From a virus, in the IMG/VR virus record IMGVR_UViG_3300023104_000008, positions 1 to 41,645 of that record: DNA of 41,645 nt; one strand, given 5' to 3'. The notes under the pieces were generated by a model. That model was not told the DNA's origin, did no database searches, and worked only from the letters and a program-made list of their open reading frames with translations. The stretch's first letter is position 1. Every line of letters begins with the position of its first letter. Position numbers and translations under genes: made by a program. Positions 20,805 to 22,613 of this stretch are shown one piece after another.

Positions 20805-21493
20805 TGGAAAATAAACCTAAAAAATGCAAAGGAATCGGTAAGGCAATATCAGTAAAAGGATGCGGTAATTTAACCTTATGGCGTAAATACGGACTTTGCG
20901 CCAATTGTGCCGCTGATTTTTTTTACGGAACTGATGCCGGTAAAATGATAATGTATACTCACATTATGCCGAAAGCTAAAAACAAAGTAATTGCAAATGA
21001 AAAAGAAAAGACAAAAAAGCTAAAGGAAAAAATAACTGAATGGGATTTGAAACTTAGAACTCAACTTCAAAAAATATCCAGGCTTATTGATTATAATCTT
21101 CCATGTTTAGCACGAGGTGTGTACGGGCAAATTCATGGAGGGCATATACTGGCTGCGGGCGGTAACAAAACAATTTCATACAACTTGCACAATATACACA
21201 GGCAATCAGCGCATTCAAATCATTTCCAAAATGATGATGGTTTATTACGTGAAGGACTTAAAAAAGAGTATGGGGAAGAGTATTTAAACTTTATTATGGA
21301 TTTAAGGCGAACAGAGTCTTTAAATTATAAAAACGAAGTGTACCATGCCTTTTATTTAAAAGCCCGTAAAATATCCTTAGAACTTGAAAAAAAAGCATTA
21401 GAGTACTCTTTACCTGAAAGAATAAGTTTAAGAAATGAAATAAACCTTAAAATGAATATTTACAAAGAAGAATATTGCGTTTATAATGGCTAA
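20804..21493 (+). CDS. ninG: NinG-like (Rap) recombination nuclease
   Basis: 229 aa. It carries the NinG signature CLARGVYGQIHGGHILAAGG followed by SYNLHNIHRQSAHSNH (101-140). The N-terminus has a cysteine cluster (C8, C20, C32, C35) that can form a zinc ribbon. The middle is a charged coiled coil (64-90). Lambda NinG/Rap resolves recombination intermediates. Placement after NinB-like and methylase genes fits. Confidence 0.8.
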   Translation: MENKPKKCKGIGKAISVKGCGNLTLWRKYGLCANCAADFFYGTDAGKMIMYTHIMPKAKNKVIANEKEKTKKLKEKITEWDLKLRTQLQKISRLIDYNLPCLARGVYGQIHGGHILAAGGNKTISYNLHNIHRQSAHSNHFQNDDGLLREGLKKEYGEEYLNFIMDLRRTESLNYKNEVYHAFYLKARKISLELEKKALEYSLPERISLRNEINLKMNIYKEEYCVYNG

Positions 21494-21626
21494 ACAAAAA
21501 CAAAAACAGCCTACAATAGAAGAATTACGTAAAGAGCAAAGAGAACTTTTAGTATCTCGTGAAAACCCGAAACGATTAGCCGAATTAACCGATAAACTAA
21601 ATTATTTTGACTGGGGGATAAAATAA
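21486..21626 (+). CDS. Small helical protein (46 aa)
   Basis: ATG at 21486 lies inside the last codons of NinG; TAA at 21624-21626. The product is charged and helical (QPTIEELRKEQRELLVSRE, ending LNYFDWGIK). Not recognised. Its overlap with NinG suggests coupled translation. Confidence 0.5.
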   Translation: MAKQKQKQPTIEELRKEQRELLVSRENPKRLAELTDKLNYFDWGIK

Positions 21627-21661
21627 ATTAATAAAGTATGCTTTATTTAAAAAGAATGCTT

Positions 21662-21669
21662 TATATTTG
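21662..21669 (+). promoter_or_regulatory. Bacteroidota -7 element TATATTTG
   Basis: An exact TAnnTTTG match, 51 bases before the ATG at 21720, in a 93-base gap. About 20 bases upstream is CTTTAT rather than TTTG. It would start a transcript that carries the hammerhead-like element at 21909-21972. Confidence 0.6.
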
Positions 21670-21719
21670 TATCAGAAATAACAAAGAAACTCAAAAAAAT
21701 AACATTAAACAATAATATC

Positions 21720-21914
21720 ATGACTACAGGCAAAAACATCCACCAAAAAATTAACGCACGTTCTAACGCTTCATTAAACAGGATTAAAGACGGCAGACCA
21801 GCAAGTAACAGGCTTGTGCAGCTTGTTTACACTCGGGATCTTGATTACTGGAAAACAGCCCCATATATCGCCCTATTGAATAGCAGGAATTATTTAAGAG
21901 AGGATATAAACTAA
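21720..21914 (+). CDS. Small basic protein (64 aa)
   Basis: Arg/Asn-rich, soluble, not recognised (NIHQKINARSNASLNRIKDG, then DYWKTAPYIALLNSRNYLRED). It has its own promoter. Its stop codon (21912-21914) lies within the outer part of the ribozyme-like fold that follows, so translation to the stop would compete with folding of stem II. Confidence 0.6.
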   Translation: MTTGKNIHQKINARSNASLNRIKDGRPASNRLVQLVYTRDLDYWKTAPYIALLNSRNYLREDIN

Positions 21915-21972
21915 CCGAAACGGGCGCAGCCCGTCAATACACAGCCTTTAAGTGTATTCTGAAGAGATAGGT
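21909..21972 (+). ncRNA. Candidate hammerhead ribozyme (open stem II, type II layout)
   Basis: In order: GAAA (21917-21920), stem III ACGGGC/GCCCGT (21920-21925 with 21929-21934, triloop GCA), C17 at 21935, stem I AATACAC/GTGTATT (21936-21942 with 21952-21958, 9-base loop) and CTGAAGA (21959-21965). These match the invariant hammerhead core CUGANGA, GAA, A15.1-U16.1 and H17. G21966 and C21916 supply the conserved G10.1-C11.1 pair. Beyond that stem II is weak: UAG (21968-21970) may pair with CUA (21911-21913) across an internal loop. Predicted self-cleavage is between 21935 and 21936. No T run follows, so this is not a terminator. Activity is not shown by sequence alone. Confidence 0.65.
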
Positions 21973-22003
21973 AAAAAATAAAAATAACTAATTATTAAAA
22001 ATT

Positions 22004-22153
22004 ATGCCAAAAGGAAAAAAAGTATTCTCGAAAGGTGGAGTTACGGAAAGGGTTTGTATAACCCGTAACCTACCGGTAAAAGGAAAAGATGAAATAATCG
22101 AAGCCTTTAATAAAATGATAAAAGAACAATTCGCTGATAGGGATTGGACTTAA
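22004..22153 (+). CDS. Small basic protein (49 aa)
   Basis: ATG at 22004 in the context AAATTATG, TAA at 22151-22153. A lysine-rich start (PKGKKVFSKGGVTERVC) is followed by a helical segment (GKDEIIEAFNKMIKEQF). Not recognised. It is the first gene downstream of the ribozyme-like element, so it would be translated from the 3' cleavage product. Confidence 0.55.
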   Translation: MPKGKKVFSKGGVTERVCITRNLPVKGKDEIIEAFNKMIKEQFADRDWT

Positions 22154-22175
22154 TTAACCACCTAAACACTAAACC

Positions 22176-22322
22176 ATGAAAACAACACAAAACAGCATTC
22201 TTCTTGGTGTATTTGAAAAGCATAAAGGATATTCATCCAGTGTTTTTAATAATGAAGAATGGAAAGAATTTGATGCTTTTATAGCAGGATTTGAGTGCGC
22301 AATGGCATTTAAACCAGAATAA
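22176..22322 (+). CDS. Small hypothetical protein (48 aa)
   Basis: ATG at 22176, TAA at 22320-22322. Helical with a conserved-looking EWKEFDAFIAGFECAMAF segment. Not recognised. It precedes a gene that shares motifs with the minus-strand gene at 38313-38600. Confidence 0.5.
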   Translation: MKTTQNSILLGVFEKHKGYSSSVFNNEEWKEFDAFIAGFECAMAFKPE

Positions 22323-22325
22323 CCT

Positions 22326-22613
22326 ATGAAAACAATTGAAGAAATTAAAAACGAGGTTGCTGTAAAGCATGGGTGTACTAATTGGATTATTTTAGTCCGT
22401 AAAGTAAATTGCGGAATATCATATACTGATTTTATTAATATTGAAAACGAAGTCGCAACCAAGTACGCCAAACAATGCTGCGATGAACAGATAAAGGCGT
22501 GTGCTGAAAACGTAGCGATACGAGATGAAGAACTAAATCCAAGCTATGAATTAGCCGAGTTTTCAATCCTAAACACCCCTAACGTAGTAACAACAAAGCC
22601 ATGCCAAGAATAA
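22326..22613 (+). CDS. Hypothetical protein, CDEQI / SILNTPNVVT family (95 aa)
   Basis: Not functionally recognised. It has A-K-x-C-C-DEQI (CDEQI at 52-56) followed by a further Cys, and ends SILNTPNVVT (80-89). Both motifs recur in the minus-strand protein at 38313-38600 with the same order and similar spacing, so the two are relatives. Overlaps the next gene by 13 bases. Confidence 0.65.
   Translation: MKTIEEIKNEVAVKHGCTNWIILVRKVNCGISYTDFINIENEVATKYAKQCCDEQIKACAENVAIRDEELNPSYELAEFSILNTPNVVTTKPCQE

Follow-up and report, generated by a model that had tools for sequence, protein, structure and literature searches.

Does the gap between two very small genes of a phage carry an RNA that cuts itself? 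The window studied here is the whole 41,645-nucleotide stretch of IMG/VR record IMGVR_UViG_3300023104_000008, and on its plus strand, at 21914-21972, a candidate type II hammerhead sits between two tiny ORFs of a flavobacterial-type phage. Hammerheads of type II, known in phages since 2011, are abundant there; published type II examples cleave in vitro, and hammerhead arrays do so when expressed in E. coli (PMC3088659). The role of hammerheads in bacteria and phages is listed as an open question in a review of the field (PMC6155905). Judging from its sequence, we consider the element very probably a true self-cleaving ribozyme, a type II hammerhead like those known from phages, with predicted activity.

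Architecture of the element

Read in order, the plus-strand letters of 21914-21972 are ACC, GAA, ACGGGC, GCA, GCCCGU, C, AAUACAC, AGCCUUUAA, GUGUAUU, CUGAAGA, GAU and AGGU. Together with the neighboring genes, they are assigned to the following features, in which R2 is a covariance model described below.

21662..21669, plus strand: TATATTTG, possible Bacteroidota -7 promoter element, weak (motif at chance frequency)
21720..21914, plus strand: upstream 64-aa ORF; its UAA stop (21912-21914) shares A21914 (11.3) with the 5' strand of stem II
21914..21916, plus strand: putative 5' strand of stem II (A11.3, C11.2, C11.1), from the sequence reading and R2
21917..21919, plus strand: core G12 A13 A14 (GAA), from the sequence reading
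21920..21934, plus strand: hairpin of stem III, with 6 bp, a GCA loop and A15.1-U16.1 as the closing pair, from sequence and fold
21935, plus strand: C17, with predicted cleavage between 21935 and 21936, a position taken from the hammerhead consensus
21936..21958, plus strand: stem I hairpin, 7 bp, 9-nt loop, from sequence and fold
21944..21947, plus strand: loop I GCC(U), putative 5' strand of the pseudoknot, by the register of the family pseudoknot
21959..21965, plus strand: core CUGAAGA, C3 to A9, with N7 = A and G8 = 21964, from sequence
21966..21968, plus strand: putative 3' strand of stem II (G10.1, A10.2, U10.3), A10.2 being mismatched with C11.2, from sequence and R2
21969..21972, plus strand: tail (A)GGU, putative 3' strand of the pseudoknot, by the family register
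22004..22153, plus strand: downstream 49-aa ORF, with an A-rich leader lacking a Shine-Dalgarno sequence

Stem III pairs ACGGGC (21920-21925) with GCCCGU (21929-21934), placing A15.1 at 21920 and U16.1 at 21934, and the A+U-rich stem I pairs AAUACAC (21936-21942) with GUGUAUU (21952-21958). Several hallmarks of type II are present, namely the CUGANGA and GAA core, A15.1-U16.1, H17, closed stems I and III, and an open stem II. The initial annotation had reported the core, stem III, stem I and the C11.1-G10.1 pair at these coordinates, and direct re-reading of the letters agreed on every one; the type II layout that it described is likewise there, with stems I and III closed as 7-bp and 6-bp hairpins and stem II open. 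Adenine at N7 of the CUGANGA core occurs in 14 of 305 type II relatives among the matches listed, and the CUGAAGA core is also found in the Rfam-accepted elements of L062, L018 and L075.

Stem II had been described as having few pairs. It is indeed weak, and its composition can be given more exactly: C21916-G21966 form a pair, C21915 and A21967 a central C.A mismatch, and A21914-U21968 a further pair, for two standard pairs of three. The family pattern is a G10.1-C11.1 start and usually 2-4 bp; the window has the 10.1-11.1 pair, followed by A.C and then U-A. The same mismatch at 10.2/11.2 is shared by L003 and L124, both accepted by Rfam (38.9 and 44.9 bits, respectively) and otherwise intact in structure.

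A loop I-tail pseudoknot, overlooked in that earlier description, would join C21946-G21970, C21945-G21971 and G21944.U21972, with a possible fourth pair, U21947-A21969. Its register is that of columns 38-40 with 60-62 in the family alignment A2 (see below). The window offers three pairs in register and four at best (two G-C and one G.U, perhaps also an A-U), and its loop and tail keep the near-invariant CC/GG pairs of the family pseudoknot. Most type II relatives among the matches listed have 4-6 pairs, and 48 of the 222 long-loop relatives among those matches have four or fewer. In the modeled minimum-energy fold, stem II is open, or ACC (21914-21916) pairs with GGU (21970-21972) and the core is disrupted; this ACC/GGU pairing is the main competing fold. 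An energy gap at least as large as the window's is seen in 27 of 306 elements, window included, among the matches listed.

Covariance models and the phage type II family

Rfam reported no hammerhead in the window, either at the gathering threshold or at E-values up to 10. The sole weak Rfam match, to a lncRNA model on the other strand, was judged a chance hit. The cut-off of the relevant model, Hammerhead_II (RF02276), is 37 bits, and the window element stays below it. So does L029 (36.6 bits), an element whose three stems are perfect and whose loop I is complementary to its tail; beyond what L029 shows, the window element also has an A+U-rich stem I, the CUGAAGA core and the stem II mismatch. 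Among the Rfam-scanned loci, 4 of 19 descriptor-positive elements went unreported by Rfam (L014, L029, L034 and L080). Well-formed elements are missed by the model or its cut-off, among them those in which loop I has 3-5 nt and stem II has 4 bp. Because RF02276 misses genuine members, the silence of Rfam is weak evidence against the element.

Two family-specific models gave a different result. R1, built from 22 elements, most of which share or were collected with the window's own stem III sequence, matched the site at 46 bits (E 2e-10). Since this score is partly circular, R2 was built as a control from 23 other phage type II hammerheads, with stem III ACGGGC excluded, and gave the site 35.2 bits (E 1.2e-7), with nothing else in the window reaching significance; the E-values of both models are rough, as their calibrations were short. 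The next-best R2 site in the window scores 9.9 bits. Elements entered R2 for having GTC/GAC as stem II and CAGG in the tail, or for lying next to an element that does, a selection by which the window is penalized for its mismatch and credited for its AGG. The covariance check proposed in the initial annotation was thus negative for Rfam and positive for R1 and R2, and its hammerhead interpretation is supported by the architecture, by the independently selected R2, and by the gene context.

Only a single site in the window matches a strict descriptor (full core, A15.1-U16.1, H17 and perfect stems of 4 bp or more). When both strands of the window were searched after dinucleotide shuffling, 5,317 shuffles yielded 38 sites in all, only one of which combines at least 13 pairs in P1+P3 with the 10.1-11.1 pair. 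Sequence comparison shows the architecture and the type II family assignment.

The element belongs to a large group. The stem III pattern CGAAACGGGC-N3..8-GCCCGTC matches at least 120 IMG/VR stretches, and 104 of the 128 matches read back among those listed (window's copy included) have CTGANGA nearby, at most 80 nt downstream or 60 nt upstream. Many of these loci are Hammerhead_II according to Rfam. With a second IMG/VR scan, chosen regardless of stem III and again counted among the matches listed, a descriptor pass over all collected loci gave at least 306 distinct type II elements, the window included. One candidate picked up by the mismatch pattern, L123, was set aside as a chance match within a long ORF. 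Covariation is strong in all four helices of two alignments, A1 and A2, the loop I-tail pseudoknot as well as stems I, II and III; in A2 the share of paired cells is 97.6%, both sides have changed in 17 of 20 pairs, and not one of 500 shuffles attains any of five measures.

Several features of this group can be recorded in their own right. Type II elements form arrays on one strand of single phage contigs, with at least 10 copies in L249, at least seven each in L007 and L055, and at least six each in L112, L157 and L224. At least 44 elements (e.g., L055, L120, L004 and L018) have a single additional base separating A9 from the first stem II pair; this subclass, common among phage type II hammerheads, reads CUGAUGA-U-GGC or CUGAUGA-U-GAC.

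The window element resembles the published RF02276 family (Perreault et al. 2011, PMC3088659) in element order, invariant core, A15.1-U16.1, C17 site, closed stems I and III, open stem II, loop I-tail pseudoknot and its seat between small phage genes. It differs in falling below Rfam detection, in the central C.A mismatch of stem II, the A+U-rich stem I, a pseudoknot of only 3-4 bp, A instead of U at N7, and a single copy rather than the several found in many phages. Individual IMG/VR elements are also close: L029 has the same ACGGGC/GCCCGU stem III and the same GAUAGG after the core, L146 has CUGAAGA GAUAG and a possible AGGC/GCCU pseudoknot, and L124 and L003 have the stem II mismatch. In most of these four, stem I is longer or more G+C-rich than in the window and the pseudoknot is stronger, and no flanking genes common to them and the window were detected. 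Type I hammerheads in phage contigs L040, L073, L084, L086 and L109 share the core and the ACGGGC stem III; unlike the window element, they have an open stem I and closed stems II and III. In these type I elements (two copies in L086), stem I reads GGTTAA...TTAACC or similar, and they lie directly before an ATG without an evident Shine-Dalgarno sequence.

Gene context and phage lineage

Placement between a 64-aa and a 49-aa gene, as originally proposed, is borne out by the ORF coordinates. The upstream UAA ends 2 nt before GAAA, and the ATG of the 49-aa ORF lies 38 nt past the core and 68 nt past the predicted cleavage end. Among the matches listed, a stop-to-GAAA distance of 2 nt is the commonest (94 of 305), and one of 3 nt occurs in 57 of 305. 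Stops 2-3 nt before GAAA accordingly characterize 151 of the 305 type II elements among those matches, from loci L003-L249. An upstream stop within 12 nt of GAAA is found in 254 of 305 relatives among the matches listed, versus 6.7% of random positions, and a downstream ATG within 60 nt in 264 of 305 of them. Both the stop and the ATG are found in 219 of 305 relatives among the matches listed; random positions show both in 2.8% of cases within those loci, and in 0.7% when drawn from the plus strand of the window. Such a placement fits a published proposal in which phage hammerheads divide long transcripts into mRNAs the length of an operon or a gene (PMC3088659).

Other parts of the proposed context fared less well. 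The TAnnTTTG promoter motif does exist upstream, as TATATTTG at 21662-21669, but the motif is no commoner in the window than chance predicts (69 seen versus 69.8 expected). The description of the flanking genes as early is unproven; the site lies between recombination/methylase genes and terminase genes. A terminator reading was rejected for want of a U-run, and no terminator-like site was found in 21400-22400.

By its terminase and portal, the phage falls close to Chryseobacterium prophages and to phages of Flavobacterium and Cellulophaga. Searches of 98 related loci (1.18 Mb) gathered through terminase and NinG found no hammerhead, and there is no evidence for conservation of the element in the phage lineage of the window. 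Neither the 64-aa nor the 49-aa protein had relatives in anything searched, a 500-bp region gave only chance matches to phage DNA, and a portal alignment search of genome contigs returned no loci. R2 found nothing in 296 genomes of a family-level set around a Chryseobacterium genome. RF02276 matches 3 of 395 genomes in that genus's phylum, where type II hammerheads are therefore present but rare. Upstream of the element region, a 46-aa ORF (21486-21626) is kept in related flavobacterial phages at 45-61% identity. In L251, this gene lies about 0.4 kb before the small terminase gene, whereas the window has unrelated small genes in between. Because the 46-aa gene is kept in relatives and the proteins flanking the element have none, the element lies in a variable gene-cargo stretch.

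Expected activity and alternative readings

As we picture it, stems III and I would fold as hairpins while the polycistronic phage RNA is being transcribed, the short stem II (C-G, C.A, A-U) would close the core, loop I would dock onto the tail through the 3-4 bp pseudoknot, and the RNA would cut itself after C21935. The upstream 64-aa message would then end in a stable 3' hairpin with a 2',3'-cyclic phosphate just past its stop codon, and the downstream 49-aa message would begin 68 nt ahead of its ATG, with a 5'-OH and the hairpin of stem I. Such cleavage would probably separate the two messages and make them differ in stability.

How fast such cutting might be depends on the two weak contacts. 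In one published type II ribozyme, the native stem II is a single base pair and cleavage is nevertheless fast, so a very short stem II alone should be tolerable; shortening the pseudoknot of that ribozyme from 6 to 4 bp slowed cleavage about 20-fold, and another two-base loss slowed it more than 100-fold (PMC3088659), from which a short pseudoknot would be expected to cost speed. With both its stem II and its pseudoknot weak, the window element should cleave more slowly than well-paired relatives, and the combination plausibly makes a slow ribozyme. Detectable cleavage in vitro at 10 mM Mg2+ is likely; fast cleavage under cell-like Mg2+ is a prospect that we lean slightly against.

Two readings would deny the element a useful ribozyme function. 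Chance convergence, in which two unrelated hairpins (e.g., an mRNA-stabilizing pair or the remnant of a terminator) mimic the hammerhead consensus, could draw on the presence of a stable G+C-rich hairpin in an AT-rich genome and on the missing Rfam match. It is very improbable given the single comparable site in 5,317 shuffles, the R2 match, the in-register pseudoknot, the gene context and the lack of any terminator-like site nearby. Decay is the more serious proposal: an active type II ancestor may have acquired the C11.2.A10.2 mismatch and an eroded pseudoknot, leaving no useful cleavage and two hairpins whose only present role may be to form mRNA ends or spacers. The mismatch itself, a pseudoknot that, with 4 bp at best, is among the shorter ones of the family, a modeled energy that favors the inactive alternative fold, and the absence of a hammerhead from the 98 related loci all point this way. 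Drift, however, would be expected to strike the catalytic core letters and the two perfect hairpins as well, and these are all intact; moreover, L003 and L124 carry the same mismatch in otherwise intact structures, and the published 1-bp stem II is fast. We therefore regard decay, including a residual role for the hairpins, as rather unlikely.

A further proposal refines the preferred reading of a genuine hammerhead and is not exclusive of it. Ribosomes terminating on the 64-aa gene could cover stem II and GAAA, such that cutting would fall mainly on RNA untranslated there and message cutting would be coupled to translation of the upstream gene. The stop ending 2 nt before GAAA, here as in the commonest class of relatives, and the excess of nearby stops over random positions are consistent with this gating, but tight packing of phage genes alone would give the same spacing, and we consider it quite unlikely. 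Slightly more doubtful again is its general form, in which the stop-abutting placement is functional in the window and in most phage type II hammerheads through ribosome-gated cleavage, the weak stem II of the window element making a more sensitive gate.

Read as a genuine type II hammerhead, the element is a further case, from a flavobacterial-type phage, that escapes the standard database model, and shows that Rfam-based surveys undercount A+U-rich or weakly paired type II members. In compact natural form, it would also allow one to test how far the pairing of stem II and pseudoknot can be reduced in a hammerhead. Finally, the strict post-stop placement seen across the 305 elements among the matches listed makes the translation-coupling hypothesis testable.
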